DNA of 64,000 nt. Origin: Melioribacter roseus. GTDB lineage: Bacteria > Bacteroidota > Ignavibacteria > Ignavibacteriales > Melioribacteraceae. The translations under genes were made by a program, and so were the position numbers. Under the pieces are notes generated by a model. The model searched no databases. It was not told the origin of the DNA and saw only the letters and a program-made list of their open reading frames with translations. Where the stretch lies: contig DYLK01000001.1 in the NCBI GenBank assembly GCA_020722065.1, positions 80,387 through 144,386 of the forward strand, in the 5' to 3' direction. Position 1 is the stretch's first letter; each line of letters starts with the position of its first letter. This document shows positions 11,632-41,424 of the stretch, piece after piece.

Positions 11632-13194
11632 ATGTTATCTAAAATAAAAACTATTATTTGGTTAAAGCCCCTTTCTTTTTTAACAGCAATTAGTTTGATT
11701 GTTTTCATTGTAAATAGAATAATTGATGCTACTTATTATACTCAAATCCAATTCATTTTCTCAAAATATATTTATCCAAATGATATCAATTTTCTTTTCG
11801 GTGCATTTACAAATATGGGAGAAGTGGTTACTGCTTTGTTGGGAATTGAAATAACAGCTGTTGCGATTATTGTTCAATTGTCTGCTAATAAATATTCTTC
11901 AAAGATTATGGAATTGTTTATTGCTGATAGGGTGAATTTTTATGTGTTTTCTATTTATGTAGTAACTGGTGTAAATACTATGATGCTTGTATTCACTTCA
12001 GGGAACGTATTAATACCTTATTTTAGTATTTTTATTAATAATATTTTCCTAATTTTAAGTTTAATAATAGTAATTCCACATTTTGCTTATGTTTTTAATT
12101 TCTTGCGTCCAGAGAATTTTCTTCAAATTATTGAAGATGATGCTAAAAAAATGTTTAGAAAAATACGAATCGAAAATGAACTCAAATTTATATCTTATAA
12201 AAAGCAATTAGCTTATAACATAGATTTTATTGGTGATGTAGCTCTGAATTCTGTACATAATAGCGATAGAGCAATTGCACTTTTGTGTATTGTAACACTT
12301 AAAAATATTTCTAATAATTACATTTCTCAAAAGAAGTTATTTCCAGAGAATTGGCATAAATTAAGCGGCGATGAAAATGTTGACCCGGATTTCGCTAATT
12401 ATTCTTCATTTGTGTTGAAAAAAATTGAAGAAAACAAAGTCCTTTTTGAAAGAAAGGTATTAAGATTATTTGAAATTGTGTTTAATCTGACTAAAACAAA
12501 TCAAAGAGATATTTCTTCAGGAATTTTAATGAATACTCGAAAAATTTTTGAACAAGCAGTTAATTCTGATGATTATGGTGTACAATGGACAGTAATTAAG
12601 TATTTCAATTCATATTTACGAATTTCAATTTCATCTAAAGACCCACGTTCGGCATTTAATACAATGGAACATTATAGAATAATTGGTGAAATTGTTATGG
12701 AAAAAAATAATAATATGTTGTTTTCAATTTTTAAGAATTTCAAATATTATGGGCAGGAAGCTAATAAAAATAATATTTTGTTCATATTGGAAACTGCTGC
12801 TTATGATTTATATTTGCTTATAAAATTATTACACGAAAAGAAAATCCAAAATTTTGATGAATTTCTTGAACTTTATTTAACACTTGATGAACCAATTGAT
12901 TTTGTGGAAAAATCAAAATTTGATAAAAGAGAAATGAGTTTATTAGGAGTAAGAATTGCTCAAGTTAAATTAGCTGCATATTTTATAATAAAAAACGAAA
13001 AGCAACTTGCACAAAGAATATACGAAGATATGAAAAACGAACCAAAAGATAGAATTGAAAAAATTAAAAAGTTGATTTCGGACACAACAGAAGAAGAATT
13101 TTGGGAAATCACACCAAGAGGAATAAATTTTTATTATCTTAACGATATTGAAAAGCAAGCATTAAAAGAATTTTTTATATTATTTACATATTAA
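11632..13194 (+). CDS. Multi-span membrane protein, DUF2254-like
   Basis: This 520-residue protein has about four or five hydrophobic helices in its first 160 residues. A long helical, charged and probably cytoplasmic region follows, without a motif I recognise. The membrane part (ALLGIEITAVAIIVQLSANKYS followed by an aromatic-rich helix) resembles DUF2254 membrane proteins, whose function is unknown. I chose the ATG at 11632; a TTG two codons upstream (11626) is possible. It ends only 25 bases before the GldL-like gene and is the first gene of that run, so it may belong to the same machinery, perhaps as an accessory membrane component. That role is inference. Confidence 0.6.
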   Translation: MLSKIKTIIWLKPLSFLTAISLIVFIVNRIIDATYYTQIQFIFSKYIYPNDINFLFGAFTNMGEVVTALLGIEITAVAIIVQLSANKYSSKIMELFIADRVNFYVFSIYVVTGVNTMMLVFTSGNVLIPYFSIFINNIFLILSLIIVIPHFAYVFNFLRPENFLQIIEDDAKKMFRKIRIENELKFISYKKQLAYNIDFIGDVALNSVHNSDRAIALLCIVTLKNISNNYISQKKLFPENWHKLSGDENVDPDFANYSSFVLKKIEENKVLFERKVLRLFEIVFNLTKTNQRDISSGILMNTRKIFEQAVNSDDYGVQWTVIKYFNSYLRISISSKDPRSAFNTMEHYRIIGEIVMEKNNNMLFSIFKNFKYYGQEANKNNILFILETAAYDLYLLIKLLHEKKIQNFDEFLELYLTLDEPIDFVEKSKFDKREMSLLGVRIAQVKLAAYFIIKNEKQLAQRIYEDMKNEPKDRIEKIKKLISDTTEEEFWEITPRGINFYYLNDIEKQALKEFFILFTY

Positions 13195-13219
13195 AATCTA
13201 AAAATTATATGGAGAAAAA

Positions 13220-13741
13220 ATGAAACACAAAAAAGCAAATGAACCTCAAACCGCATTTGGTAGATTTATGGTTTATACTTTTATACCAAATTATGCGAAT
13301 AACGTAAATGGTATTGTTTATTTTGGAGCAGCATTCTTAATCATCATTGTTGGATTAAGAGGATTAGGCAGGGAAGCAGGAACTATTTCGGCTATTCCTA
13401 AATTTTTATTGAACGATGTAGGCTCTATTAATCCAAATTGGGTAATTGCAGCTATTTTGTTGGAATTTTTCTTATTAACATTGTTGGCTACTGTAACATT
13501 TTTTACACCTGAAGAAAATCATCACCAAGAAAAAGCAGTTGAAGATGAAATAAAAGTACCACAACGTCCCAAAGTTGATATGGAAAGAGAATTAAATGAT
13601 TTACGAGATTTAGTTGAAAAAGAAGTGAAAATGGTTAATGAATATCTTGATAAGTATGAAGCGATTGCCGAAAAACTTAACAAAATGCAAATGAAAAGTG
13701 TAAAAGCTATTCAAGAAATGAAAGACGCAATTAAATCATAA
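13220..13741 (+). CDS. GldL-like motor protein (two-helix inner-membrane stator candidate)
   Basis: The protein has 173 residues with two membrane helices near the N-terminus (about 31-50 and 73-96) and then a soluble, highly charged, probable coiled-coil tail (about 115-170). This is the layout of GldL/PorL, which with GldM forms the proton-driven 5:2 motor of T9SS and gliding. GldL carries one functional glutamate in its second helix; here Glu82 sits in the second helix (ILLEFFLLTLLATVTFF), followed by TPEE where GldL has a similar FEP-type turn. It is shorter than F. johnsoniae GldL (about 215 residues). The start has a GGAG ribosome site. It lies 33 bases before the GldM-like gene. The family call rests on topology, the glutamate and context, not on an alignment score. 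Confidence 0.6.
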   Translation: MKHKKANEPQTAFGRFMVYTFIPNYANNVNGIVYFGAAFLIIIVGLRGLGREAGTISAIPKFLLNDVGSINPNWVIAAILLEFFLLTLLATVTFFTPEENHHQEKAVEDEIKVPQRPKVDMERELNDLRDLVEKEVKMVNEYLDKYEAIAEKLNKMQMKSVKAIQEMKDAIKS

Positions 13742-13774
13742 TTTATTCACAAACAAAATAAGAGGAAAAATTCC

Positions 13775-14380
13775 ATGAAAAAGAACATGGTTTATTTCAT
13801 TTTATACATAGTTCTTATCTCAGAATTGTTGATGGTAATTGTTGAAAGAGATGAATTAATTGCCAAAGAAGAAGAAGTTAGAAATAAAATGCTTGCAACA
13901 ATAGCTGAACAATATAAAGAACCATTGTTATTAAATGTACCAGAAAAAACTTCAGATTATTCAATTAAAAAAGATTCACCAAAAATTGTAGTTATGAATC
14001 CTATTGGATTGGTTTCAGAAAATGAAAAAAGCAAAGTACAATATGTAGTTAAAATATCTCCAAAGTCGAAATCACGTCCCTCAGATTTCCCTTCAAATGG
14101 ATTATCAAACACGTCAAAAAACGATAAATATTTCGTGAAAGTAAATCCAGATGGAAGTGCTGAATTCAATGGGAAATTTACTTCTCCAGGTGAATATACT
14201 TTTTCCGCTCAATTTTTTGTAGAACGTGAATTACCAGACTATCTTCCAGAATATTTATTAAATGATTTAATGAAAATGGTTGGAGAAAATCTGAATGGAA
14301 AAAGCAAAGTTGTTGAGTTTACTGTAAATGCCAAAAATATTGGCGGTTTGGAGAAAAAAGAAGTACAAATTTCATGGTAA
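13775..14380 (+). CDS. GldM-like single-span periplasmic protein
   Basis: The protein has 201 residues. A short cytoplasmic N-terminus precedes one hydrophobic helix (about 5-24) that contains a buried Glu17. A charged helical linker (24-45) and then a beta-rich periplasmic domain follow. GldM/PorM has the same arrangement, with its N-terminal helix inserted in the GldL ring, but is about 510 residues and has four periplasmic domains. Here only one or two such domains fit, and the next gene encodes another periplasmic beta protein, so the GldM role may be divided between two genes. A GAGG ribosome site precedes the ATG. There is no lipobox or cleavable signal, so it is probably anchored by the helix. 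Confidence 0.5.
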   Translation: MKKNMVYFILYIVLISELLMVIVERDELIAKEEEVRNKMLATIAEQYKEPLLLNVPEKTSDYSIKKDSPKIVVMNPIGLVSENEKSKVQYVVKISPKSKSRPSDFPSNGLSNTSKNDKYFVKVNPDGSAEFNGKFTSPGEYTFSAQFFVERELPDYLPEYLLNDLMKMVGENLNGKSKVVEFTVNAKNIGGLEKKEVQISW

Positions 14381-14390
14381 AGGTAAAAAA

Positions 14391-15473
14391 ATGATTAGAA
14401 ATATTTTATACGTTTTAATTCTACTTTTTAGTTTTATTCAAGCTCAAGAATCAATTACTATTCTTGATACAATAGATGTTGTTACATCTCAAGCATTTAA
14501 AGTGCCGGCGGAAAAAAATATTGTTTTTGCCAATTTATTGAAATTTGAAGGTAAAGCAGTACTACTTGATAGAAATTTAAATCAAATTCACGAAGCAAAT
14601 GAATATTTCCGAAGTCCAGACGAAAAAACTATGGATAAAGAAGTTAAAACAGGCAGAGGAGCAAATGTACAATTTCATGTAAAGGATAAAATTGATGAAG
14701 TTGGTGAATACCTTATGAGAATAGATGTACGCTTGATGGGCGAAAATCGTCAGATTCAACAACACTCAGCGTATTATTTAATTCGAGTGAGTAACCCACA
14801 TATTGCATCAATTGTAGATCTTAAACCCGAATATTTCTACTCTGAAACGAAAACTTTTAGCTTTGCAACACAAGAATATTCTAATGTAAATTTATATTAT
14901 TGGGATGTTGAAGACCAAAGTGGTAATAAATTGCTTTCTGGAAAGGGTCCAGTAGTAACGCTTGATACATTATTTTCCAATCTAAGTTTAATTGATTCCA
15001 AATTGAAAATTAAAGGTTATTATGCAGATAAAGTTTTTGAATATTTAGAAAATGGAAATACAACACCAAAAAAATCAGAGTGGGAAATATTTATAAAAAA
15101 ACCAACTCTAAACGAATTTACTGATTGGAAAAATGAAGAAAAAAATAATGACCCAAAAGCATATTTTATAAGTGTTTATAGCCATCAAGCAATGAAAATC
15201 CTTTATACATATACAGGAAAAACAGAAAGTGGCTTTGTGGTCGTAAAACCAGATATTCGCTCACTTAGTTTAGTCTCGGAACCAGAAAATCTTATAAAAT
15301 CTTATAAATCTTCTAAAAGTGGAAGTTGGGTATTTATAACATTCGAACTAAATCAAGAATATTTAGATTCACTTGAAGAATATGCAGAGATTGCAGCAAA
15401 ATTAAAAGTGAAATTTAAGACACAATTTAACGAAACAATACAATATGATTATTCTGCAACTTTATATAAGTAA
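14391..15473 (+). CDS. Exported periplasmic beta-rich protein of the motor operon
   Basis: The protein has 360 residues with a cleavable signal peptide (cleavage after FIQAQ, about residue 18) and no further membrane segment. The mature part is rich in alternating hydrophobic residues typical of Ig-like or GldM-type beta domains, with roughly three segments (about 25-140, 140-240, 240-360). No enzyme motif is visible and I do not recognise a family. I chose the ATG at 14391 because it gives an intact signal peptide. It starts 10 bases after the GldM-like gene. It might extend the periplasmic part of the motor towards the barrels encoded next. Confidence 0.7.
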   Translation: MIRNILYVLILLFSFIQAQESITILDTIDVVTSQAFKVPAEKNIVFANLLKFEGKAVLLDRNLNQIHEANEYFRSPDEKTMDKEVKTGRGANVQFHVKDKIDEVGEYLMRIDVRLMGENRQIQQHSAYYLIRVSNPHIASIVDLKPEYFYSETKTFSFATQEYSNVNLYYWDVEDQSGNKLLSGKGPVVTLDTLFSNLSLIDSKLKIKGYYADKVFEYLENGNTTPKKSEWEIFIKKPTLNEFTDWKNEEKNNDPKAYFISVYSHQAMKILYTYTGKTESGFVVVKPDIRSLSLVSEPENLIKSYKSSKSGSWVFITFELNQEYLDSLEEYAEIAAKLKVKFKTQFNETIQYDYSATLYK

Positions 15474-15477
15474 AACT

Positions 15478-17025
15478 ATGAAAAAGTATATACTACTAAT
15501 ATTAATTCTACTAAATCTACCGATATTTGCACAAAAAACAGATGATTTAATAGATATGATAAACATCAAACTTGAGAAGGATAAAAAATATCTGAATATA
15601 CATTCAATTCCTATGTATTTGGATAAAAACAAAAATGCTGAGATTCTAACTTTGCCACGAACTGATGGGAAAATCCCTTTTGAATTTAAGTTGAGTGATA
15701 ACTTTACTTATCGCCTAGTTTTTATTAAAACGGGAATTGAACTTGATTCATTAATTTTACTTTATATTAATGAAATTAAAGACAACTCAAGTTCAGCTGG
15801 GGATGAATTTATGACCAGTGCTGTTGTAAATGACGATACTAATATGGTTGTAACATTTAAGGATCTTTTTTATCTTAAAAAAGAAAATAAAGCTAAATAT
15901 CAGCAACTTTATAGTTATTTAACTAATTATCTTCTCCAAAATGATGAAGAAAGCATAACAGGACTTTTACAAATAAAACCAGATGAAAAACTAAACCGTA
16001 GCTTTGGTTTTTCTTCTCGAGATAATCGGGATTTTCTTCGTTACATGATTGCAAATACTTCATCACATTGGTATCCAAGAAAAGTAGAAGAAATTACAAC
16101 TAGTGGAAGAACTAAAAAAGTTGAAAAACTCCCATTTCAAGTTGATGCAACTTTATACTCATTAAGTTTTGCACATAATATTATGGGATTTGGAGCTAAA
16201 AACGATAGAGGCGGAGCAAGTCTTGAATTAGATGTTTATGAACCTTTATTGAACCTTTTACCAATCGAAGCAATGACTTTTAATGCTGGCTTTAGAGCTG
16301 TATTTCTTTTAGAAAAAGCCGAAACAAGAGAAGAAAGTTCATATATTGACGCAAAATTTCAGGTTCGAGCAAATATGGCAAGAAGTTCTTTCATGGATGG
16401 AGACTATATTTTTAAGAATAATCCATTCGCTTTTGTTGATCAGGGTCGATTAAATATGAACACTGGTTTGCTTGGTGATATTGAAGTTACAAGACCATTT
16501 ACACTACCAAATCTAAGAATATATTTCACAGTTATGGGCGATGATTTTAGCGATGCAAATATATATCTAACTGGAAACCCATCAATAAATAATGGTGGAC
16601 TTTACGCTTATTATTCGATTTCACAGTTTTTCACTACAATGTCTTTTTATTGGAACATTGATGAATCTGTAGAACATTCATTTAGATTTGATTTAGGTAC
16701 TGGCTATTACGACATTTGGTTAGCAAATTACAATGGTTGGGCAAATTTCAGAAATAGCAAGTTGATAAAAGATGGTTTTCAGCCTTTATTAACAATTGGT
16801 TATACTTTTGCTCCAGATGAAAATCCTTTTACAAATCTAAAATTGAAATATTTTGATAGCAGAATTACTATTGATAGTTGGTTACGGGTTTTCAAAACAA
16901 AAGATATGGTTCACGAATTTAGATTTTACGTTAATTATATTACACCTCCAATTGCTCGAAATATTTACGATTGGGAAACTCAAGGTGGTTTATCACTTAA
17001 TTTAGGTTACAGATATGGCTTATAA
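15478..17025 (+). CDS. Outer-membrane beta-barrel protein A1 (paralogue of A2)
   Basis: The protein has 515 residues with a signal peptide (LPIFAQ, cleavage near residue 20). A mixed N-terminal domain (about 20-200) and a C-terminal half of amphipathic strands rich in Tyr, Phe and Gly follow, ending in LNLGYRYGL; this is the pattern of an outer-membrane beta-barrel. It is clearly related to the protein at 18422. Shared points are the YLN.. segment near residue 40, DEFM/DEMF, FKD, the FYWN motif and a common ending. The start at 15478 was chosen over an in-frame ATG at 15445 because it begins the signal peptide. It is 4 bases after the preceding gene and overlaps B1 by 11 bases. The function is unknown. 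Confidence 0.75.
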   Translation: MKKYILLILILLNLPIFAQKTDDLIDMINIKLEKDKKYLNIHSIPMYLDKNKNAEILTLPRTDGKIPFEFKLSDNFTYRLVFIKTGIELDSLILLYINEIKDNSSSAGDEFMTSAVVNDDTNMVVTFKDLFYLKKENKAKYQQLYSYLTNYLLQNDEESITGLLQIKPDEKLNRSFGFSSRDNRDFLRYMIANTSSHWYPRKVEEITTSGRTKKVEKLPFQVDATLYSLSFAHNIMGFGAKNDRGGASLELDVYEPLLNLLPIEAMTFNAGFRAVFLLEKAETREESSYIDAKFQVRANMARSSFMDGDYIFKNNPFAFVDQGRLNMNTGLLGDIEVTRPFTLPNLRIYFTVMGDDFSDANIYLTGNPSINNGGLYAYYSISQFFTTMSFYWNIDESVEHSFRFDLGTGYYDIWLANYNGWANFRNSKLIKDGFQPLLTIGYTFAPDENPFTNLKLKYFDSRITIDSWLRVFKTKDMVHEFRFYVNYITPPIARNIYDWETQGGLSLNLGYRYGL

Positions 17026-18406
17026 TAAATTAAAATTCTCGTTTTTAATATATTTATTTCTTTTCACTTCAATATTTGCTCAAAGTAGTACAGATTCCAC
17101 TGATGCAAAAGATTTGCAAGTTATTTTCTCAAATTTGGAATATAACACTATTGCTTATAATGATTTGAAGGTCAAGTGGGTTGTTAGTGATCCAGATTTA
17201 GTTAGAGATGTTTTCAACAGATTTGTGGTAAATGATGCTTTACGATTAAATGGGAATAGAATCACAAAGCAAATACTTCAGAAAAAAGCGGAAGAAATCT
17301 TTGAAGGAAACGTTGTACTCGATTTAAGAAAACGTTATTATGATGATGAAATAGAATTCTTTGCATTTATTACAGAAGAAGAATTGAATAATAAGGACCC
17401 AAAGTATCTTTTTGACCCAGTTGTAGATGCCTATTATTTAAGAGAAATTATTAATGGTAAACTATATTCACTTTTGCAGAATAAAGAGTATTATTTTCAA
17501 GATATTACAAAGAAAAGTTATGATGTAAAACCTGGATATTATTTTGATATAAATCTCAATCTCACAAATCCTGAACTAATGTTTTGGGCAACAACTTCAG
17601 ACTATCGAAATAAATACTTACTTTCACTAATAGGTGAATGGGGAAACAACGATATTTATCTTCCAGGTTGGTATAATTCAGATTATTTTGGAGCTGTCCA
17701 ACTTAAATATTATGATTTTCTAAAAAGCGATCCCAATGATCACACTTACAAAGTTGCAATTGGTACAGGATTCAAATCTGGAACTCCGTACATTTCTGTT
17801 TTACCAGAATCTCCGTTAGTAAAATCTTCTGAAAACTTGTTCTTTAACATAAATGGAGATGTTTTCAAAAATATTCATCCATCTCTATCAGGCTACTATC
17901 TTGATTTTACAGGAGCTTTAGCTTTTCGTGATTATGAAATGAAAGATTTCAATTTTGATGATACTACAAATTTCTATTCCATTCCAGACTTTTTTTCAGT
18001 TTCAGTAACTAAAAGAAAAATTTTCAACATCTTTGATTTTGGAAATTTGCTTGCCGGAGGAGGAATTTCTACACACTCCGAAAAGTATTATAGATTTATT
18101 CCAGGTGCAAATTCATTAATAGATATCTACAACAAGGATTTTTTCGATACTTTTAATCATACTATTTTCGCAAAAGTTGGAGTTGAAAAATACGGGGGTC
18201 TAGTTCAGCATCATATAATTTTCAATTTAGGTTATGGTTTAAACCAAGAATACTTTGCTTTTGGAATCGATATGAAAATGATGTTGAGTGATTTAATTGG
18301 ACTCTCTGTAAAATATAATTCAATTTCAGGTTATAACGAATCACGTTATCCTTACAGAACAGATACTCAAATTATTTTTTCACCAATTCTAAGAATAAAC
18401 TATTAA
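17015..18406 (+). CDS. Outer-membrane beta-barrel protein B1 (paralogue of B2)
   Basis: The protein has 463 residues with a signal peptide ending SIFAQ. The N-terminal domain (about 25-170) is helical and shares with B2 the pattern NLEYNT.A.NDLK..W..DP.L.RD.FNR and the segment LRKRY(Y/F)D. It is followed by a beta-barrel-like region with PELMF and a C-terminal SPILRINY ending in an aromatic residue, the usual outer-membrane assembly signal. The start lies inside A1 (11-base overlap), so A and B are translationally coupled and probably form a complex. I do not recognise a named family; it does not look like PorP/SprF. Confidence 0.75.
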   Translation: MAYNKLKFSFLIYLFLFTSIFAQSSTDSTDAKDLQVIFSNLEYNTIAYNDLKVKWVVSDPDLVRDVFNRFVVNDALRLNGNRITKQILQKKAEEIFEGNVVLDLRKRYYDDEIEFFAFITEEELNNKDPKYLFDPVVDAYYLREIINGKLYSLLQNKEYYFQDITKKSYDVKPGYYFDINLNLTNPELMFWATTSDYRNKYLLSLIGEWGNNDIYLPGWYNSDYFGAVQLKYYDFLKSDPNDHTYKVAIGTGFKSGTPYISVLPESPLVKSSENLFFNINGDVFKNIHPSLSGYYLDFTGALAFRDYEMKDFNFDDTTNFYSIPDFFSVSVTKRKIFNIFDFGNLLAGGGISTHSEKYYRFIPGANSLIDIYNKDFFDTFNHTIFAKVGVEKYGGLVQHHIIFNLGYGLNQEYFAFGIDMKMMLSDLIGLSVKYNSISGYNESRYPYRTDTQIIFSPILRINY

Positions 18407-18421
18407 TTTTGTTAAAATACT

Positions 18422-19927
18422 TTGAGGAGAAAAATATTATTAATATTGTTAATTGCGTTTAGCTTCAATTATGCACAAGAAATTGATCATATTTATCATC
18501 TAATTTCTGAGAAAATTGAAGCTGACCAAAAATACTTGAACGTATTTGCAATCAAACTTCCTACAGATAGATTAATAACTATCAAAAATATCCCAAAATT
18601 TACAAAAGGAAATCAACCAATTAATTTTAAAAATGAGGAAGGAATTTCTTATTTCGCACTATTTTTAGGCGAAAGTGTGGAAACCGATTCAATAATTGTT
18701 TTATCAATTTATGAAGAAAAAGACCCGAGTTTATCAGAAAGTGATGAAATGTTTGCAACGGCAAATTCCGCAATTATTTACGATACAACACAATTTTTAT
18801 CTTTTAAGGATGTTCAGGAATTATATTTTTCAAATAGAGATTTCTATAATCAATTTTATAAAATAATTTTTGAAGAAATTGTAATGAATGATGTTGAGCC
18901 AGATTGGTTGTTGCAAGATGGAATTCAAGATGAATCGTTGATGCGAAGTAAAGGTATTTCTGGGAAAAATAATCAGGATTACTTGAATGATGTTTGGGTA
19001 AATTCAGAGCATTTCTATCCAAAACCAATTGTACAATTAAAATCTGGGGGAAGAAAATCAAAAACTGAAACTTCGGAATATTATCTCGATGCAAATTTTA
19101 GCAGAATAACATTCTATCAAAGTGAGTATTTTGCACTTGATAGCAAAAAAATGAATATAATTGGACTTGAATTAACTGCCGAAGATAAAGCACTAAACTT
19201 ATTGCCTTGGCAATCAATGACGATGGCATTTGGTTTACGTACTTTTTTGTCTATTTCAGATGTTGTTCAAAATGTTTATGACGATTTTTTAATTAATGCT
19301 AAAATTTTAGGAAGATTTCGGCTAAATACTTCAGGATTTTATAAAGCTCCTTTCATTTTTAATGAACAACCAAAACTCAACGTAACTTCTGGAATTATTC
19401 TTGAATTAAACACAACACGAGCCTTTGGAATGCCTTTTTTGAATTTTTATTATTCTGGTGGAGTACAAAATTTTTCAAATCCTTATGTATATTTTGGACA
19501 TGGGGATTCAACTTGGTCATATTTTACTACAAATCAGTGGTTCGCAAATATGTCATTTTATTGGAATACTAACGAACTTTTGTATTCAAGATTCAAATTG
19601 GATATTGGTTTAGGAGCTTATGATGTTGTAAAAGCAATCAATTATAATAACTCATTAACAACAAAAAATTCCTATTATCAAATTCAGCCATACTTAGGAT
19701 TTAATTTTACTTTTGTTCCAAACAAAATTGAATTATTCAGTTTGCAAGCCAGATATTTTGATAATGTAATAAAAGGCAATATTTGGTTGAAAATATTAGA
19801 ATTTTCAAAAATTCATACAATACGTTTTCAAGTGAATTTCATTTCTTCTCCATTTTTCAGGAATCAATTTGAATGGGAAAATGACGGTGGTACTTCGGTT
19901 CAACTAAATTATAGATTGGGATTTTAG
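18422..19927 (+). CDS. Outer-membrane beta-barrel protein A2 (paralogue of A1)
   Basis: The protein has 501 residues. The start is a TTG that directly begins a good signal peptide (RRKILLILLIAFSFNYAQ); no ATG fits. The N-terminal domain (about 20-190) and barrel-like C-terminal half match A1 in order and in short motifs, although overall divergence is large, so the duplication is old. The protein ends in NYRLGF, a terminal-aromatic outer-membrane signature. It starts 15 bases after B1, and its stop overlaps the GTG start of B2. Confidence 0.74.
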   Translation: MRRKILLILLIAFSFNYAQEIDHIYHLISEKIEADQKYLNVFAIKLPTDRLITIKNIPKFTKGNQPINFKNEEGISYFALFLGESVETDSIIVLSIYEEKDPSLSESDEMFATANSAIIYDTTQFLSFKDVQELYFSNRDFYNQFYKIIFEEIVMNDVEPDWLLQDGIQDESLMRSKGISGKNNQDYLNDVWVNSEHFYPKPIVQLKSGGRKSKTETSEYYLDANFSRITFYQSEYFALDSKKMNIIGLELTAEDKALNLLPWQSMTMAFGLRTFLSISDVVQNVYDDFLINAKILGRFRLNTSGFYKAPFIFNEQPKLNVTSGIILELNTTRAFGMPFLNFYYSGGVQNFSNPYVYFGHGDSTWSYFTTNQWFANMSFYWNTNELLYSRFKLDIGLGAYDVVKAINYNNSLTTKNSYYQIQPYLGFNFTFVPNKIELFSLQARYFDNVIKGNIWLKILEFSKIHTIRFQVNFISSPFFRNQFEWENDGGTSVQLNYRLGF

Positions 19928-21294: not shown

Positions 21295-21340
21295 TGATAT
21301 TCATCATTTCATTAAAATATAAAATGAATAATTTCGCATT

Positions 21341-27300: not shown

Positions 27301-30300
27301 TCAAACTCCAGCAGTTAGTGAATATATCAATTCGAAATTCAATTACGAAATCACTTGGACATCTAATTACATTGATGACGTCAAAATTCAATATTCAACA
27401 GATAACATAAATTGGAACACGATTGTTGATTCTGTTTCTTCGGCTTTGGGAAGCTATATTTGGGTAATTCCAAGTAGTTTGTCTTCAAATACAACTTATT
27501 TGCAAATAGTTGATATTGATAACGCAAATATTTTCACGAGAATGAATTCTCCATTTACTGTCGGACAAATTGAAGTTACTTCTCCAAATGGCGGTGAAGT
27601 TCTACAAAGTGGACAAACTCACACGATCACTTGGGATTATTCAAGTTCAATTTCAAGATTTAATATAAAATATTCAATTGATAACGGAACAAATTGGGAA
27701 AATATTGCTACAGGAACAACTGCAACTGGAAGTTATGATTGGCTTATTCCAAGTTCGCTTTCTGAAGATAGTATTTTAATTCGAATTTTAGATGCAAATT
27801 CAGGCGGAATAATTGCCGATACTTCTGATTCGTATTTTTCTGTAAACACTCTCGCAATCACTTCGCCTGTTGGAAATGAGAATTTACAAGTCGGCAAAAC
27901 ATTGAATATAACTTGGAATTCTGGAACGAATGTTACGAATGTAGATTTAGAATATATAACTTCATCAAATTTAACTTGGCAGTCAATTGCTTCAAATTTA
28001 ACTGCAAGTGATGAATCATATAGTTGGGTAATTCCAAATATTGCAGATGATAATGTTCGAATTCGGTTAAAATCATCAACAAATTCACAAATTGCAGATA
28101 CTTCAGAGATTTTCCGCATCGCAAATGTATCGATAACAGAACCAAACTCATCAGAGAAATGGCAAGTTGGTGATGTTCACACAATCGAATGGACAAAAAC
28201 ATCGAATGTAAGTTCTGTGAATTTGTATTATCAAACAGAAACAAACGAATGGAAAGAAATTTCGTTAAACTACCAATCTACGAATAATCAATATTTGTGG
28301 ACAATTCCAAATGATGTTTCAGAACACGTAAATATTTTATTGGAAGATGGACAATCAGCAAACATTTTTGATACACTTGAAACGGAAATAGTGATTTCAA
28401 ATCTCGCAATTACAAATCCAACAAATGCAACAAATTGGCAAAGTGGAAAAGTTGGAACAATACGTTGGACAAACTCTGATGATGTTCGCAAAGTTGCGGT
28501 TGAATATTCAATTAATTCTGGAAATAGTTGGGAAGTAATTACAGATTCAGTTTTGGCAACAGACAATCAAATAAATTGGACAATTCCAACAAACGTGAAT
28601 GGAAATTCGATTTTAGTTAGAATGTTTGATATTGATTCGCCAACATTGGACGACACAAGTTCAGCTTTCCGCATCGCAAATGTATCGATAACAGAACCAA
28701 ACTCATCAGAGAAATGGCAAGTTGGTGATGTTCACACAATCGAATGGACAAAAACATCGAATGTAAGTTCTGTGAATTTGTATTATCAAACAGAAACAAA
28801 CGAATGGAAAGAAATTTCGTTAAACTACCAATCTACGAATAATCAATATTTGTGGACAATTCCAAATGATGTTTCAGAACACGTAAATATTTTATTGGAA
28901 GATGGACAATCAGCAAACATTTTTGATACACTTGAAACGGAAATAGTGATTTCAAATCTCGCAATTACAAATCCAACAAATGCAACAAATTGGATTGCAG
29001 GAACAACTCAAAATATTAATTGGACAAAGACTTCAGACATCAGAAAAATTGCAGTGTTTTATTCGATAGATAATGGAAATAATTGGATTACAATTTCAGA
29101 TTCTACAAATTCAGGCGGTACTTTGGAGTGGAATATCCCGAGTTCAATTTCAAGTGATTTAGTGAAAATTAGAATAAATGATATCGATTTCCCTGAAGTT
29201 AATGATACTTCGGAAGTTTTTTCTATTTCAAGTGCTTCTTTAAGTTTAATTTCACCAAATGGAAATGCTTTTTGGCAAGTTGGGAAAGAATATCAAATTA
29301 GTTGGACAGCAACTTCAAATATTTCTTTAATTAATTTGTATTATTCGTTAGATGGCGGTAATAATTGGACACTTGCCACTTCAAATTTGGCTGCTTCATT
29401 GCAAAATTATCAATTTGAACCAACTTCGGGAATGATTTCAGATTCATTCAAAGTGAAAATTGAAGATGCAACGAATACTTTTCTTTCTGATAGCAGCAGT
29501 AATAATAATTTTGTTCGTGATATTAAAATTTTGTCTCCACAACTTGGCGAACATTTGCAAGCAAACCGAAATGAAGAAATTACGTGGCAAAATTCAGTAA
29601 ATGTTACAAATGTTTTAATCCAATATTCTGCTGATGGAACAAACTGGGTTACTTTGCCAAATACTCCAATTGCAAGCAACACTTCTCCTTATAATTGGCT
29701 TGTTTCGAATATTCCAACAACTTCTGGTAGAATTCGTATTTCTGATGCACAAAGTAATTTTGCAATTGTTGATACTTCAGATATATTTTCTGTGAGTTCA
29801 TTAACATTTTTAACACCAAATTCCTACGATATTTATCAAAATGGCGATTCAGTTCGGTTTACTTGGCAAAATAGTTCGGATATTCAATCTCTTCAATTTT
29901 CCTATTCGTATGACCGAACAAATTGGAATTTGATTGATAATCAGCCAATTTCATCTTCATTAAGTGAATATTGGTGGAATATTGACGAAAGTATTTGTGG
30001 CGATTCTGTTTGGTTCAAAATATTTGATTCTAATTATCCTTCTGTATATGATAGCTCAACAACTGCAATTAGTGTTGAACAAATTCAAGTGATTTCACCA
30101 AATTCAGATGATAATTGGCAAGTGAATACAAATCACATTATAAGTTGGACAACTTGCAACGTCGATTCAATTTCGATAAAATATAGTACAAACGGTGGAA
30201 ATTCTTGGTTTAAAATTGCTGATTCAATTGATGCAAATTCTGTAAATTCATACACTTGGCGTGTTCCAAATATTGAAACAGATTCAGCTTTAATAAAAAT

Positions 30301-33300
30301 ATATGATATCAAAAATCAAGAAATTGAAGTTTTTTCAGAGTATTTTGGAATATACAATCCAACTTTGGAATTGATTTATCCAAATGGGAACCAACATTTT
30401 CAAGCAGGAAAAACTTATCCAATTATTTGGAATTCGCAATTAGTTGACCAAATTTCAATTGAATATAGCTTGGATAATGGAACAAATTGGACAACTATTT
30501 CTCTTGCAACTGAAGCAAATCTTGGTAAAATAGATTGGCAAGTTCCTGACACAATTTTTTCGAGCACAGCAAAAATTAGAATAATCAATTTATCATCACC
30601 ATTTATTCGCGATAGCAGTTCAACAAGTTTTAAGATTACACAAATTAATTTGTTAAGTCCGAATGCAAACGAATATCTTGAAGCTGGAAAAACATATAAA
30701 ATTAAGTGGAACGCAAGCGATACTTTCAATAGAATGAAAATTTTATATTCAACAGATGGTGGAAATATTTGGAATATAATTTCAGGCGGGACAAATGTAA
30801 ATCAAGCATTAGATAGTTTAAATTGGACAGTTCCAAATAGTACTGCTTCAAATCAAACACAGATAAAAATTCAAGTTCAAGATGCAGATTCAATTAATTC
30901 AATTTCATCGAATTTTAATACTGGTTGGGTGAATTTACTTTCACCAAACGGTGGAGAAATTTATTTAAATGGGAAAAATCTTGAAGTTCAATGGCAAAAT
31001 GGAAATTCAACAAGTGAAATATTAGTAGAAATTATCGATAAAACCGATAGAACAATTATTGCCTCAAAATCTGATTCTGCTAATTTCGGCTTTACAAACA
31101 TACTTATTCCACCAACTTATATTGGCGATTCGCTATTTGTTCGAATTAGTGATTTTGCTTCGGATTATGAATTTTCAGATTCATCAAATTCTGTTTTTTC
31201 AGTAACTCATTTAACCGTTATTAAACCAGAAGAAAACACAAATTGGAGTTCGGGGTCAAAACAAGTTATTGAATGGCAAAATGGTAATTATATCGATTCA
31301 TTAGATTTTGAATATTCATTAGATAACGGACAAACTTGGACAACAATCGCAACAAAAATTCCAAGTAATCAAGATACTTTACATTGGATTTTGCCTGACC
31401 AAGTAAATTCGCCAAATTGTTTAGTTCGTGCTTTCGAATCAGATTTTAATGAACTTGCTGATACATCAGAAAAATTTGCTATTTATCAAGCTACTTTGGA
31501 GTTGTTTTCATTAGATGGAAATGAAAAAATTAACGCTGGCAAACCTTATCAAATCAATTGGGGAAGTCAGTTTATTACAAATATTATGATTGAAGTTTCA
31601 TATAATGCAGGTAGAAATTGGGATACTCTTTCGACAAGCATTATTGCTACAGATTCAAATTGGACTTGGAATGTTCCCGCAGGAATTTCAACTGATTCTG
31701 CTTTGATTAGAATTAGCGATGTAACAAATTTTTCACTTCAAGATGAAAGTACAAATTATTTCTCAATTGGATGGATAGATATTCAAAATCCAGTTAATGG
31801 CACAAATTGGCTTGCCGAAAGAACACATGAAATCACTTGGACACATAGTCAAAGTGTTAGAAGAGTAAATTTGTTCTATTCATTAACAAATTCAACATTA
31901 GATGAAGATTTAGTGCCAATTGCTACAAATATTAATGCAACAGATTCAAGCTATTTGTGGGAAATCCCACATATTTTTAGCTCGAACGCAAACATTGTGA
32001 TAAAAGACGCTGAATCAGGCGAAAATCTTTTCGATTCATCTGATAGATTCATAATTAGTATATTAAACATTTTAACACCAAACGGTGGTGAGTTTATTCA
32101 AAGTGGAACTAATTACGAAATTACTTGGGAAGTTAGCGATCAAATTTATAGATTTTTAAATATTGCTTATTCACTAAATGGCGGGAAAAATTGGTTAACT
32201 ATTGCAAATAATGTAGTTAGTTCAGATAGTAATTATTTATGGGCAATTCCAGAAGGAATTTCGTCAGATTCTGCTACAATTCGAATTTCAAATTCATCAA
32301 ATTCAAATATTTATGATACGAGCTCATCATTTTTTAATATTGGTGGTCTAGAACTTACTTCACATAATTCTTTTGATAAATATCTTGAAAATTCATACAC
32401 GGATATTACATGGTCGGCTTCATCTAATATTTCAAAAGTTGATATTCATTACAAAACAAACGAAAATGTTTGGAAACCGATTGTTTTAGCACTCGATGCA
32501 AATCTTCAAACATATCATTGGAAATTGCCTGAAGATACTGGAGATTCGTGTTATATTAGAATAAGAGATAATAGTAATCCGTTACTTTATGATTATTCTA
32601 ATTCTAATTTTGCTATTACAAAACTGAAATTATTATCATTAAATAACGGTGGAGTTTTCCAACTTGGTAAAGATTTAGATATTTATTGGGAAAGCGAATA
32701 TTTGGATTATCTTACTTTTGAATTTTCAACAGATTCAACAAATTGGACACGAATTAACACAAGTTCAATCGAAGCTGATTCTGGACATTACGTTTGGAAT
32801 TTGCCTGATGAAATTAGTTATGCTTCCCCAAATTATATTGTTCGTCTTGTTGATGAAGATTTTCCAAATGTTGCAGATACATCAAACAAAATTTTCACTT
32901 TGAGTTACTTGAAATTAATTTCTCCGAATGGTGGAAGTGAACAACAAATTGGAACTTCGTACGAAATATTGTGGAGTGCAAGCGAAAATACAATTTCTAC
33001 AGTAAATCTTTATGTTGAAATAAACCAAACTTGGGTCCCAATTCAGGCATTAATTCCAACTACAGAGAATACTTATAATTGGGTGATAAACACCGATGCT
33101 TCGCCTTCATCTCGAATTAAAATTGAAGATTCGCAAAATAATTCCATTTTTGATGTAAGCGATTCTACATTTGTCATTTCGCATCTCGAAATTATCTTCC
33201 CAAATGGTGGAAATGCTCAGAAATTACAAGTCGGAAGGACTTACGAAGTAACTTGGGAAAGTACTTATATCAACAATTTGATTTTACAATATTCAGCAAA

Positions 33301-35248
33301 TAATGGATCGCAATGGAATCCAGTTGGTGTTTCGCCAGCAGAGAATAATAGTTATTTGTGGACAATTCCAAATAGTCCATCTCTAAATGCTTTATTTAAA
33401 ATCACCGATTTGAATTACAATTCTGTTTATGATGAAAGTGATAACAATTTCTCAATTGTTTCTTTACGCGTAACTTCTCCAAACACTTACACAGCATATA
33501 ATATTGGGACAACACATTCAATAACTTGGGAAAGTACTAATTTGGATAGCGTTCGAATTCAATTATCAATTGATGGTGGAAATACATATCCAATCGAAAT
33601 TGCTAAACTTAGTGCAAATCAACAAAATTATAATTGGACAATCCCAAATATTTCTAGTTCAAATGCAAGAATTAGAATTACAGACATTTATGATAATTTA
33701 GTTTATGACGAAAGCGACACGACTTTCTTAATGGGAACTTTCCCTGTGGTTATTCCAGAAAGCGAAAAGCAAAGCAAAACTATTAATTTACTATACGAAT
33801 TGCCTAATGTTGGTGAAGAATTAAGAATTGAAAGATTTTATTTCAGGAGTTTAACAGGGAATAATGTTGATGGAAAAACTTATTTATTAGAAGATTATTC
33901 GAATTTGGTTGCTCCAGCTCGTGATACTATAAAATGGAATTCACTCGGACAATTACCAAATTTTGAAGGAAATATTATTTTCCAAATACGTTTCCAATCA
34001 AATTATGGTGTCTATTATGATGTAATAGTTGATACATTATTAATTGATAACAAAGCTCCAACATTCAACAATTCCAGCTTTGTAATTTCACAATCACCAG
34101 AAATTTATGGTTGGGATGTTGCACTAGTAAATTGGGAATCGGCAGTTGATTCCTCTCAACCAGTTTTATATGATTTGTATGTTTCTGAAAATACAACTTT
34201 CCCTGAAGTTCCATTAGTTTCAAACTATGGTGAAACAGGATTTATTCGAAATCTGGCAAATTATTCGACTTATTATTTCAAAATTGTACTTACAGATTTG
34301 TTTGGCAATACAACATCGTTTACAAAATCATATAAAACAAAAATTTTAGCAGATTATGATGGTTTGGGAAATGTAGATGCAATCGATTTGACGAATTTTG
34401 TTACACTTTGGTCAAGTGGAGATTCCACACAAGGTGTCGATTTGTACCCATACACTGGAACAATTCCGCAACCAACTATAAATCCAGATGACATACTGAA
34501 TGCATTTGATTTATTAGTCTTTAGAGATATGTGGATTTATGATAAATTCAATAATTTGTTACCTAAATCAAATTATTCTACTAAAATGTTTGATAGGAAC
34601 GACTTAGCAATTAGTGGCAAGCAAGAATCAGTAGATTTTAATTTTGAAATTAATTCATTAGCTATTGGTGGTTCTGTTGAACTACTATACAATCCCGATA
34701 TGTTCAATTTAGATTCAATTAGATTTTTATCCGAGTTTAACGAATCAGATTTGTTTGTACTTACATTTGTAGATACAGCACAAGGACGAATATTATTCGA
34801 TTTTGCATCACTTTCTGGAGAATTGTTTTCAAATAAATATTCAATTCACGCAAGTATCAATTCAAATTTGAGTAGGGAAGTTAAAACAGATTCAATACTT
34901 TTTGTATATAAATCTATTACAAAAGATCGACAAATAACTACTGAAGGAAAAGTGTTTAATTTGAATTATGTCCCCGATAAATTTAAATTATATCAAAATT
35001 ATCCTAATCCATTTAATCCATCTACAACAATTGAATTTGATATTGCGAAAAAAACCAAAGTAACGCTAAAATTATATAACATTTTAGGCGAAGAAATCTT
35101 TACAATTGTAAATAAAGAATTAAATGCTGGAAATTATAGAGAAATTGTAGATTTGAACAGACTAAAAGGTTTAGCAAGTGGCGTTTATTTCTATCGAATT
35201 GTAGCTGATAATTTTGTCCAAACAAAAAAAATGATACTTCTTAAGTAA
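21341..35248 (+). CDS. Giant T9SS-exported surface protein with about 44 Ig-like repeats
   Basis: The protein has 4635 residues. The signal peptide (1-21, ending AFAQ) is followed by about 44 tandem repeats of roughly 92 residues (22 to about 4130). Each has the plan L.PNGGE.W..G....I.W, then S.DGG..W..I, y.W.vP, .irI.D and DeSd..F.I, which resembles Kre9/KNH-type (Ser-Thr-rich GPI) Ig-like domains. Next come a non-repeat beta region (about 4131-4330), a dockerin-like pair of calcium loops starting near Asp4338 with DYDGLGNVDAID, a cohesin-like domain (about 4420-4540) and a type-A T9SS sorting domain (about 4545-4635; NYPNPFNPS at 4553-4561). It is therefore probably carried across the outer membrane by T9SS and attached to the surface. 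A long fibrous adhesin, in the manner of SprB, is the likely role. Repeats 25 and 27 are encoded by identical DNA. Confidence 0.9.
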   Translation: MKLKINYILFFILLLAGTAFAQKTISVTYPNGNERIKIGNTINILWTSNQVANVNIYLSYDGGSSWSAIATNVQASLGRYTWFIDSTSINPSQQAKIRISDVSQASIRDESNNNFTLSKIHINYPFSDEIIQRNSATSINWETSNDISLLTLQFSGNGGDSWQTIETNINSSSVNSYIYNFDGNPTTEARIKIYDQSDPSNIFYETGNFTIAELELTSPNGGEILEVGDVFTITWQSENIPFVNLEYSIDGGDWTTIENSVNGGLQRYSWEVPDVLSSQVLVKISNSDNPEIFDISESDFTIENLQIVEPNSADFWEIGEIANITWNSNINGNIDIELSIDGGNTFPISIAENIDATLGFYQYTVPNNPTNLARVRILQNSQTIDESDGDFTIGAISIQNPLGGENWVAGTYNTISWTNTEGIEVVTIDYSTDGGNNWNTIISSYSTTNSGGSYSWYIPYGVWANSAIIRVYDAVTSLGKTTNISNPFSIASIQITSPLNATIYNWGDILPITWTASPNITDVRIEYSTDWGNNYVLIESGIPSASGNYNWTIPNGISSSGMKIRITAEENSNYSSTNDGYFTIGNVQLLTPNGTEEIIGGISYPITWTATNSVAFIRLEYSIDGGNNYTNIPGAAFINAADGTYYWTVPFILTTQARIRISDSQTGNLVDASDSDFSIGLLQITNPTSGQAFSPNQAINITWNAENVSNVTLEFSSDGGINWETIVAGIDANLETYSWEIPNSYTNNAVIRISDFGNSSNYQLSGYFRITNLELTYPNGGEIFQSGKEYQITYNYSTATSSVNFELSLDAGLSWMPIESNVAANGIYSWNVPNVATNLGRIRIVDSQNSSILDESDANFTIKQLQITFPNGGNYFLVDSNTTINWISQQVNNIKIEYSTDNGGIWYEIESSVPAASQSYNWIVPNTSTQQALIRLTDADYPQYDIADTSDNTFEINQFYVTNPNGSESYVVNENVTIQWHAHPSVATVRLDYSTNNGNSWALIANGVQASDLEYIWNTPNVVTTQALVRIVNEADIDIFDISNANFSIGSITLTSPNGGEKWQLGSTQSIQWQNIPSISNIDILFSEDNGSNWTTIASNVNANLESWDWLVDGNTTGQALIRIQNSTNSEVYDESDSTFSVADINITSPNGGEDFQTNQDLAILWNSSNVNLVTIQYSDNNGTDWFDIASGVAASSGEYHWTIPLNLVTTDLLIRIYDNAFPSVFDISDAISSTHRLVLTTPINAEGWTRGENYNIEWEVGNIDRINLDYSFDGGESWNSITTNYLASNLSYNWLVPDTLITREGLIRISDTNLPEIKDSNVTYFRTGKIEVTLPNSSTIAQGGSVQQVTWVADSSITNVKIEYTVDNANWSELESSYTASVGVYSFVLPNTSTSVAKVRITDAAQNSDISDESDFFTINNLQLTYPTSSSLWMNENSYDITWTSSNIINVGLQLSVDNGNSWQTITNSTSAATGSYSWFVPDSIDSREVRIKIYDADNTSAFDSSDAFTIGSIKINSPELSDVWQYNSDYQIKWNSSQNLGQLRLEYSTDGTNWNFMSFVNSTDSVYNWRITQIQQSASVYLRLYDSDSDLNSDDFILDVSPIFGIVNLDLQIPGSTTQWQANSTQQITWGNYPNNGLLNTVSLLVSWNNGNSWETIANNVNYTDYSYDWTIPDTTSNQVRVKIVSNDYPTISDSVASAFRISDLEITNITTETEFQANRSNQITWDYDFVNRITLSYSLDNGNNWNTIIQNLQANTNSYNWQIPAGISTNQAIIRIFDSQNSNIINLSEVFTIKNLDLTSPNGSETWDNDNPHSINWNFGLVNRVNLSYSLNSGQTWTDIVLNQDATLGTYSWLIPSDLSSSSALIRIIDSENPEIRDSSQQVFNIVNFELTNPVGGEKWQVGKTYPISWQIDNSVSSVSLQYSINGGMNWNEIVGNINPSTTTTYNWEIPAGSSTNQAQIRISDNSSGVYFESGFFTIADLTIQTPAVSEYINSKFNYEITWTSNYIDDVKIQYSTDNINWNTIVDSVSSALGSYIWVIPSSLSSNTTYLQIVDIDNANIFTRMNSPFTVGQIEVTSPNGGEVLQSGQTHTITWDYSSSISRFNIKYSIDNGTNWENIATGTTATGSYDWLIPSSLSEDSILIRILDANSGGIIADTSDSYFSVNTLAITSPVGNENLQVGKTLNITWNSGTNVTNVDLEYITSSNLTWQSIASNLTASDESYSWVIPNIADDNVRIRLKSSTNSQIADTSEIFRIANVSITEPNSSEKWQVGDVHTIEWTKTSNVSSVNLYYQTETNEWKEISLNYQSTNNQYLWTIPNDVSEHVNILLEDGQSANIFDTLETEIVISNLAITNPTNATNWQSGKVGTIRWTNSDDVRKVAVEYSINSGNSWEVITDSVLATDNQINWTIPTNVNGNSILVRMFDIDSPTLDDTSSAFRIANVSITEPNSSEKWQVGDVHTIEWTKTSNVSSVNLYYQTETNEWKEISLNYQSTNNQYLWTIPNDVSEHVNILLEDGQSANIFDTLETEIVISNLAITNPTNATNWIAGTTQNINWTKTSDIRKIAVFYSIDNGNNWITISDSTNSGGTLEWNIPSSISSDLVKIRINDIDFPEVNDTSEVFSISSASLSLISPNGNAFWQVGKEYQISWTATSNISLINLYYSLDGGNNWTLATSNLAASLQNYQFEPTSGMISDSFKVKIEDATNTFLSDSSSNNNFVRDIKILSPQLGEHLQANRNEEITWQNSVNVTNVLIQYSADGTNWVTLPNTPIASNTSPYNWLVSNIPTTSGRIRISDAQSNFAIVDTSDIFSVSSLTFLTPNSYDIYQNGDSVRFTWQNSSDIQSLQFSYSYDRTNWNLIDNQPISSSLSEYWWNIDESICGDSVWFKIFDSNYPSVYDSSTTAISVEQIQVISPNSDDNWQVNTNHIISWTTCNVDSISIKYSTNGGNSWFKIADSIDANSVNSYTWRVPNIETDSALIKIYDIKNQEIEVFSEYFGIYNPTLELIYPNGNQHFQAGKTYPIIWNSQLVDQISIEYSLDNGTNWTTISLATEANLGKIDWQVPDTIFSSTAKIRIINLSSPFIRDSSSTSFKITQINLLSPNANEYLEAGKTYKIKWNASDTFNRMKILYSTDGGNIWNIISGGTNVNQALDSLNWTVPNSTASNQTQIKIQVQDADSINSISSNFNTGWVNLLSPNGGEIYLNGKNLEVQWQNGNSTSEILVEIIDKTDRTIIASKSDSANFGFTNILIPPTYIGDSLFVRISDFASDYEFSDSSNSVFSVTHLTVIKPEENTNWSSGSKQVIEWQNGNYIDSLDFEYSLDNGQTWTTIATKIPSNQDTLHWILPDQVNSPNCLVRAFESDFNELADTSEKFAIYQATLELFSLDGNEKINAGKPYQINWGSQFITNIMIEVSYNAGRNWDTLSTSIIATDSNWTWNVPAGISTDSALIRISDVTNFSLQDESTNYFSIGWIDIQNPVNGTNWLAERTHEITWTHSQSVRRVNLFYSLTNSTLDEDLVPIATNINATDSSYLWEIPHIFSSNANIVIKDAESGENLFDSSDRFIISILNILTPNGGEFIQSGTNYEITWEVSDQIYRFLNIAYSLNGGKNWLTIANNVVSSDSNYLWAIPEGISSDSATIRISNSSNSNIYDTSSSFFNIGGLELTSHNSFDKYLENSYTDITWSASSNISKVDIHYKTNENVWKPIVLALDANLQTYHWKLPEDTGDSCYIRIRDNSNPLLYDYSNSNFAITKLKLLSLNNGGVFQLGKDLDIYWESEYLDYLTFEFSTDSTNWTRINTSSIEADSGHYVWNLPDEISYASPNYIVRLVDEDFPNVADTSNKIFTLSYLKLISPNGGSEQQIGTSYEILWSASENTISTVNLYVEINQTWVPIQALIPTTENTYNWVINTDASPSSRIKIEDSQNNSIFDVSDSTFVISHLEIIFPNGGNAQKLQVGRTYEVTWESTYINNLILQYSANNGSQWNPVGVSPAENNSYLWTIPNSPSLNALFKITDLNYNSVYDESDNNFSIVSLRVTSPNTYTAYNIGTTHSITWESTNLDSVRIQLSIDGGNTYPIEIAKLSANQQNYNWTIPNISSSNARIRITDIYDNLVYDESDTTFLMGTFPVVIPESEKQSKTINLLYELPNVGEELRIERFYFRSLTGNNVDGKTYLLEDYSNLVAPARDTIKWNSLGQLPNFEGNIIFQIRFQSNYGVYYDVIVDTLLIDNKAPTFNNSSFVISQSPEIYGWDVALVNWESAVDSSQPVLYDLYVSENTTFPEVPLVSNYGETGFIRNLANYSTYYFKIVLTDLFGNTTSFTKSYKTKILADYDGLGNVDAIDLTNFVTLWSSGDSTQGVDLYPYTGTIPQPTINPDDILNAFDLLVFRDMWIYDKFNNLLPKSNYSTKMFDRNDLAISGKQESVDFNFEINSLAIGGSVELLYNPDMFNLDSIRFLSEFNESDLFVLTFVDTAQGRILFDFASLSGELFSNKYSIHASINSNLSREVKTDSILFVYKSITKDRQITTEGKVFNLNYVPDKFKLYQNYPNPFNPSTTIEFDIAKKTKVTLKLYNILGEEIFTIVNKELNAGNYREIVDLNRLKGLASGVYFYRIVADNFVQTKKMILLK
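28111..28438 (+). repeat. Identical direct repeat, copy 1, inside the giant gene
   Basis: These 328 bases recur without a difference that I can find at 28666-28993, 555 bases (exactly 185 codons) downstream. The copy covers one Ig-like repeat and the first dozen residues of the next. All other repeats in the gene are diverged. Confidence 0.95.
28666..28993 (+). repeat. Identical direct repeat, copy 2, inside the giant gene
   Basis: This is the second copy of the 328-base block at 28111. The 227-base sequence between the copies belongs to a diverged repeat. The 185-codon offset keeps frame, so recombination between copies would add or remove two domains without breaking the protein. Confidence 0.95.
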
Positions 35249-35503: not shown

Positions 35504-35511
35504 TATGTTTG
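35504..35511 (+). promoter_or_regulatory. Candidate -7 promoter element of the nqr operon
   Basis: TATGTTTG matches the Bacteroidota -7 consensus TAnnTTTG exactly; the -33 region is only TTTT at the right distance. Transcription would begin around 35518. This argues against a TTG start at 35509 and for an ATG at 35533 or later. Confidence 0.45.
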
Positions 35512-35538
35512 GATTTTCAAAATAAGATAATAATGTTT

Positions 35539-36876: not shown

Positions 36877-36880
36877 TTAA

Positions 36881-38080: not shown

Positions 38081-38870
38081 TGATAGCACTAAAAAGACTT
38101 TATTAGTTGCACTTGTAGTTTGCTTTGTTGCTTCAATTTTAGTTTCAACAGCAGCAGTTGAGCTTAAACCAGTTCAAACACTTAATAAAGAACTTGATTT
38201 GAAAAAGAATATTCTTTCTGCTGGGGATTTATACCACGAAGGAATTGATATAAATTCAGTATTTAAGGAAAAATTAAAAGCACAAATTATCGATTTAGAA
38301 ACCGGTGAAGTTATTCCCGAATCAAAATATGACGATGTGTTAAATATTGAAAAATTTAATGTAGAAACAATCGCTTCTAGTCCCAAATGGGGTAAGAGTA
38401 TTCCAGCAAGTAATGATATTGCAGGAATTAAAAGAATGCCAAAAGCAATGGCAATTTATACTGTAATTGGCGACAGTGATAAAGTTGATAAATATATTTT
38501 CCCAATTTATGGAAAAGGACTTTGGTCAACACTTTATGGATTTATTGCTGTTGATAAAGATTTAAAAACAGTAAAAGGATTTACTTTTTACCAACATGGC
38601 GAAACTCCTGGTCTTGGTGGGGAAGTTGATAATCCAAAATGGAAAAGTTCGTGGATTGGTAAACAACTTTTTGACCAAAACGGTGAGTTGAAAATTGAGG
38701 TTATAAAAGGTAAAAGTGATAGGAATAGTGATAATGCAAAATATCAAATTGATGGATTATCTGGTGCAACTTTAACAACACGTGGAGTTAATAATTTGGT
38801 TCGTTTTTGGTTAGATAAAAATGGATATGGTCCTTTCTTAAACAAATTGAAAGGGAAAAACAATGGCTAA
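38073..38870 (+). CDS. nqrC: Na+-translocating NADH:quinone reductase subunit C
   Basis: NqrC is anchored by one N-terminal helix (about 9-28) and exposes an FMN-binding domain to the periplasm. In the 265-residue protein the C-terminal motif SGATLT (230-235) is a perfect flavinylation consensus with Thr235 as FMN acceptor. The segments [15 protein letters not shown] and [11 protein letters not shown], the latter close to the flavin site, have family form. It overlaps nqrB and nqrD by 8 bases each. Confidence 0.96.
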
Positions 38871-39486: not shown

Positions 39487-39488
39487 TT

Positions 39489-40100: not shown

Positions 40101-40109
40101 GGTTTTAAT

Positions 40110-41345: not shown

Positions 41346-41362
41346 TTTTTTTATATAATTTT

Positions 41363-41402
41363 AGCGGAATTACTCTATAATTCCGCTATTATCTTTTCTT
41401 TT
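41363..41402 (+). terminator. Intrinsic terminator between nqrF and apbE
   Basis: AGCGGAATTA (41363-41372) and TAATTCCGCT (41378-41387) form a perfect 10-base stem with a 5-base loop, followed by a T-rich run (ATTATCTTTTCTTTT). It should end most nqr transcripts, with apbE expressed by read-through or from its own promoter. Confidence 0.75.
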
Positions 41403-41424
41403 ATCATTCACTATCATAATTTTT

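Follow-up and report, generated by a model that had tools for sequence, protein, structure and literature searches.

A candidate accessory GldLM-type motor module associated with paired envelope proteins and a giant T9SS-tagged protein in Ignavibacteria

GldL and GldM (PorL and PorM) constitute the 5:2 motor of the type IX secretion system (T9SS) and of Bacteroidota gliding, and in models of both processes GldLM turns the GldKN ring. A gene cluster of a Melioribacteraceae-like Ignavibacteria genome, in which GldL/GldM-like genes precede two pairs of exported proteins and a giant T9SS-tagged protein, raises the question of what a motor of this type might act on when its neighbors are other than GldK and GldN. 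The cluster lies within the window, i.e., the whole analyzed stretch of 64,000 nucleotides, and had been interpreted from its nucleotide sequence (the sequence-only reading) as a second motor dedicated to one giant fiber. Within a partial coverage of the literature, GldLM-like motors were not found to have been described for Ignavibacteria.

The window's genome (2.38 Mb, 69 contigs, estimated 100% complete) had only one relative among the named genomes, a MAG that bears the label Melioribacter roseus (Ignavibacteria, Melioribacteraceae) and carries the same genes at 79-96% identity. Families are labelled as in the genome collection (f1, f2, etc.), f1 being the window's own family.

Organization and conservation of the gene cluster

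The ORF lists and translations showed that nine co-directional genes (+ strand), one fewer than originally counted, fill window positions 11632-35248, separated by gaps of at most 46 bases, as had been claimed, or by small overlaps. The multi-span membrane protein described at the start of the cluster is a DUF2254 protein (520-522 aa; 11632-13194; Pfam DUF2254, E 3e-7, above the cut-off), encoded by what we treat as an associated gene. It is followed by (i) L (13220-13741), a GldL-like protein of 173 aa with transmembrane (TM) segments at residues 26-51 and 70-98 and Glu82 in TM2, and (ii) M (13775-14380), of 201 aa, with one N-terminal TM helix and a periplasmic domain, as judged from the alignment and a profile match to the fused M protein of other families; in both cases the initial description of a two-helix protein with a helix-2 glutamate and of a one-helix protein was confirmed. 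The next gene, beta (14391-15473), encodes a predicted exported periplasmic protein of about 360 aa, which also matches the fused M profile. Its signal-like N-terminus agrees with the periplasmic location proposed earlier, but the start of the reading frame had to be moved and is probably the ATG at 14391 (MIRNIL...) rather than 14328. Two tandem pairs of predicted exported proteins follow: A1 (15478-17025; N-terminal domain and strand-rich C-terminus), B1 (17015-18406; helical N-terminal domain and strand-rich C-terminus), A2 (18422-19927) and B2 (19927-21294). The last gene (21341-35248) encodes the giant secreted protein, whose length of 4635 residues, repeats and T9SS tag had all been read correctly.

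Pfam and NCBIfam named only the DUF2254 protein and the repeats and T9SS tag of the giant; the proteins encoded from L to B2 had no family above the cut-off. Scanned for promoters and terminators, the operon showed no more sites than shuffled sequences.

The arrangement L-M-beta-A-B, constant in order and strand, was found in neighborhoods from other genomes of families f1, f2 (a second family of the same taxonomic order) and f14, and a second A-B pair is usual in the f1/f2 loci. Of 11 related f1/f2 loci, 8 have a homolog of the DUF2254 gene immediately before L, with gaps (19-450 bp) mostly larger than in the window. Because order and short gaps recur in other genera and families, the gene set is not a chance assembly. 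In four f2 modules (L037, L039, L040 and L146), T9SS-tagged proteins of 1018-1133 aa are encoded directly upstream of DUF2254; the two that were scanned (L040 and L146) are subtilase-like.

Other families have, in place of M and beta, a single fused protein of 450-535 aa, which is the size of GldM. In f4 the pair of L and fused M is followed by genes of two large exported proteins with weak resemblance to A and B, and the L-M pair occurs without A or B in f6, f9, f16, f17, f21 and others. The separation of L and M from the barrels in related genomes had been named beforehand as a finding that would speak against the proposed system, and it applies in part, to these other families. On this comparison of neighborhoods and profiles, the operon of the window is one branch of a class-wide L-M family. 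At four further loci (L049, L051, L052 and L053), L-family proteins of greater length (about 450 aa) are encoded beside genes of PorU/PorU2-like C25 sortases. The C25 peptidase beside the longer L, in families other than that of the window, matches PorU/PorU2 models, which suggests that one branch of this motor family is linked to T9SS.

Relationship of L, M and beta to GldL and GldM

The TM2 glutamate of L is invariant in all 71 relatives that cover the column. Its counterpart in GldL, E49, shows strict conservation and is required for the motor to function (PMC8986121). Comparison of L with canonical GldL (hhalign) gave weak probabilities of 9-19%, against 0.8-2.2% for reversed decoys; the alignment is collinear and places glutamate on glutamate. 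Searches against PDB sequences yielded nothing below E 0.9 for L (hmmsearch) and nothing significant for profiles of L, M, A, B, fused M and the lipoprotein described below.

The evidence for M is stronger than for L. M carries an invariant ERD at the end of its helix, and the fused M proteins matched both M (98.6%, E 7e-16) and beta (91.7%, E 8e-7) in hhalign comparisons, so that M corresponds to the N-terminal part and beta to the C-terminal part of fused M. When 45 full-length M-family proteins were compared with 20 GldM proteins by profile-profile alignment, the two families matched with 86.7% probability (E 4.3e-6) over 182 columns, all collinear and located in the C-terminal half, and a second alignment, overlapping the first, reached 76.1%; decoys (reversed GldM and eight other profiles) gave 5.2% or less. 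The canonical GldL and GldM loci came from other families of the phylum and were confirmed by their curated models. This link runs via the fused relatives and not via the window's own split proteins, beta alone having no match to GldM (0.2%).

The module thus resembles GldL/GldM in that a two-TM protein with an invariant TM2 glutamate precedes a one-TM periplasmic beta protein, and in the GldM match of its M family in the fused form. It differs from them in several respects. No protein of the window's genome matched the curated models TIGR03513 (GldL) or TIGR03517 (GldM) above the cut-off, although both models recognize the canonical proteins. The gldK-L-M-N arrangement is absent from the locus: GldK does not precede L and GldN does not follow M, the neighbors of L being DUF2254, M, beta, A and B, and in f1/f2 M is split into two genes. 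With curated cut-offs and operon context both against it, the module falls outside the canonical GldLM family. We nevertheless consider it likely that the operon encodes a divergent GldLM-type motor; the motor part of the sequence-only reading therefore stands, distant GldLM homology being supported for M and consistent for L.

Two further candidates in the genome were rejected. Matches to TIGR03513 at C46 lay far below the cut-off and covered only the C-terminal part of the model, and matches of this type also arise in unrelated control genomes. A weak match at C26:21583, considered as a second L, lies in an ORF that by eye resembles a PAP2-type phosphatase.

The A and B pairs, the giant protein and its probable lipoprotein partner

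A1 and A2 share 33% and B1 and B2 31% identity. In the trees of both conserved families the first and second copies form separate clades (support 0.993 for A2 apart from A1 and 0.981 for B2), each with members from f1 and f2; since each clade holds both families, the duplication of the A-B pair is placed by these trees before the f1/f2 split. The two tandem pairs recognized initially are therefore present and paralogous, whereas their description as barrels is plausible rather than proven. The A family shows strand alternation, and the amphipathic-strand count of A (28) exceeds that of shuffled sequences (20 +/- 2.8), while that of B (20) is not above its shuffles (19.5). A2, B1 and B2 end in an aromatic residue; A1 ends in leucine. 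AF2 models of A1 and B1 built from four sequences (window and L056) were unusable (pLDDT 33 and 29). We consider A1 a probable and B1 a possible outer-membrane barrel, and it is plausible that both families are of this type. A weak match of the B profile beside SprA (L103, E 2e-4) was taken as chance barrel resemblance.

Pfam/NCBIfam searches gave no PorP/SprF match for A or B. A1, B1 and A2 are devoid of cysteines and B2 has one, and by these counts the twin-cysteine tail of the PorP/SprF type was not found in either family. SprF and PorG are disulfide-linked to GldK (PMC12635249). Such a link seems not to be available to A1, B1 and A2, and as GldN was not found either, a coupling other than the GldK disulfide would be needed.

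In the giant protein, a unit of about 93 aa is repeated 44 times. The conserved end of the protein spans 480 aa and includes Fn3-like, dockerin-like and cohesin-like regions; these precede a T9SS sorting domain of type A, which was recognized by TIGR04183 (E 4e-11) and, above the cut-off, by Por_Secre_tail. Orthologues are encoded directly after B2 in two other genomes: G099 of f1 (5413 aa, 52 repeats) and G165 of f2 (5237 aa, 50 repeats). The locus recalls SprB-SprF, in which a giant T9SS-exported surface protein likewise occurs beside probable outer-membrane proteins and a motor, but the giant of the window bears a type A and not a type B tag, and its repeats match no SprB repeat family. A dedicated SprF-like carrier is therefore not predicted by the tag. 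The giant gene also contains a perfect 300-nt direct repeat (28111-28410 and 28666-28965, spacing 555), which may be either a recent duplication or an assembly effect.

Dedication of the motor to one giant fiber, as initially proposed, is only partly borne out. The giant stands behind B2 in the window, in the near-identical MAG and in two other genera, yet it accompanies only four of about 12 f1/f2 modules, two of these four being near-identical. Several modules have neither giant nor lipoprotein nearby, and others flank different T9SS-tagged proteins or none.

The system probably extends past 35248 to a predicted lipoprotein (43033-43878, + strand; lipobox LNSC) with Y_Y_Y-like and cohesin-like domains, because orthologues of this lipoprotein directly follow the orthologous giant, at a distance of 1-8 bp, in G165 and G099. 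G066 has no giant at this place, and its lipoprotein gene comes immediately after B2. The cohesin and dockerin assignments of the window's own proteins lie below the Pfam cut-offs (for the lipoprotein, cohesin PF00963, E 0.0045, 17.6 bits against a gathering score of 24.1); a related lipoprotein (L170) exceeds the cohesin cut-off (26.0 bits, E 1.1e-5). Within the order, strong lipoprotein matches were found in 4 of 10 module-bearing and 0 of 22 module-less genomes (Fisher p 0.006, not corrected for relatedness). More distant lipoproteins of module-less families adjoin other T9SS-tagged proteins, which suggests that the lipoprotein goes with the cargo and not with the motor; the lipoprotein of the window probably partners the giant. 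The combination resembles cohesin-dockerin attachment in that a cohesin-like lipoprotein occurs beside a T9SS cargo with a dockerin-like region, and differs from it in that the scores are mostly below cut-offs and the cargo appears to be a structural giant instead of a cellulosome enzyme. Genomes that lack the motor also pair cohesin-like lipoproteins with T9SS-tagged proteins (L170, L172, L173 and L179), and those of the tagged proteins that were inspected are dockerin-like. Such a lipoprotein and its T9SS-tagged neighbor may represent a general surface-anchoring pair.

Proposed role of the module and its relation to T9SS

The reading that we prefer, with a probability of about 0.5, is that of an accessory GldLM-type motor that acts on the cell surface via outer-membrane partners of unfamiliar type and has the giant among its loads. 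L would form an ion-driven inner-membrane ring with the invariant TM2 glutamate as the ion carrier, M and beta would form a periplasmic shaft (from split genes here, from one fused gene in other families), and A and B would form outer-membrane pairs to which the force passes with no GldK/GldN ring in between. By virtue of its type A tag, the giant would leave the cell via the ordinary SprA T9SS; it would then be retained on the surface, possibly via a dockerin-cohesin contact with the partner lipoprotein, and the A-B pairs would carry or move it as one load among others. MotAB, ExbBD, TolQR and AglRQS are 5:2 motors (PMC9389320), and the module would share with them, by analogy, an ion-driven inner-membrane ring and a shaft; the hmmsearch of L against PDB sequences found no match to them. 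Points against the accessory-motor reading are the weak link of L alone to GldL, the missing GldM match of the window's own beta, the lack of a fold assignment for A and B, the occurrence of L and M without A/B in other families, the small share of f1/f2 modules that adjoin a giant, the type A tag of the giant, and cohesin and dockerin scores below the Pfam cut-offs in the window's own proteins. A bolder version, in which the class uses its own branch of GldLM-like motors that pass force straight to A-B pairs without a GldK/GldN ring, one of them driving a T9SS-exported fiber of 4600-5400 residues over the surface, is tentative and in our estimate rather doubtful.

A "second" motor, as originally suggested, is not what this genome contains: SprA and a single L-family protein are present, and canonical GldL, GldM and GldN were not detectable. 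The module could instead stand in for GldKLMN as the general T9SS energy chain of the lineage and drive the SprA export of every type A cargo. That its L is the only L-family gene of a genome with SprA and without detected canonical GldL, GldM and GldN would fit this explanation, as would the T9SS connection given to the L family by the longer L beside PorU/PorU2-like sortases. A core part should, however, track SprA, unless other motors are too divergent to be detected. Of 197 genomes of the class, 195 yielded SprA and 83 an L-family match, which is marginal in a few cases; within the order the figures are 32/32 for SprA and 10/32 for a strong L match, leaving 22 genomes with SprA and no strong L-family gene. 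Among 395 genomes drawn from the phylum outside the class no strong L-family match was obtained. Profile searches of the 197 class genomes gave no canonical GldM and no GldN above the cut-off, absence from an HMM search being no proof of absence. Because of this distribution the module is probably not an obligate part of the T9SS core, a conclusion that holds unless the other 22 genomes have a motor beyond detection. The general energy chain is thus unlikely, and the earlier concern that the gene set might prove to be the normal T9SS core of the lineage is probably unfounded.

The class therefore combines near-universal SprA with canonical GldM and GldN that were not found, about two fifths of its genomes carrying a divergent LM family, in some cases with new envelope partners. 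Whether the ring is dispensable, what else the motor drives and what powers SprA in module-less genomes become testable.

Slightly less credible than the general energy chain is a Ton/Tol-like energizer, in which the motor would serve uptake, efflux or envelope integrity by acting on A-B channels, the giant being no more than a neighbor. The A-B pairs are indeed duplicated and constantly accompany L-M in f1, f2 and f14, whereas the presence of the giant varies, and no family assignment of A or B speaks against such a role; on the other hand, M resembles GldM in a profile comparison whose motor-shaft reference was GldM, many modules are flanked by T9SS-tagged proteins, and orthologous giants stand directly behind B2 in three genera. 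An adjacency by chance of unrelated DUF2254, motor and giant genes, for which the absence of the giant near most modules and the Nqr operon parting the window's lipoprotein from the giant could be cited, is very improbable given the identical order, with the lipoprotein appended, in two other genera from two families and the co-occurrence of lipoprotein and module within the order.

The genes between the giant and the lipoprotein (35509-42441) form an Nqr operon (NqrA to NqrF) with ApbE. Since giant and lipoprotein are adjacent in two other genera, this Na+-translocating NQR operon and ApbE seem to have been inserted between them. Directly behind the lipoprotein, the window encodes a VWA and Fn3 protein (43962-45497), which was not seen beside the lipoprotein in the other genera.
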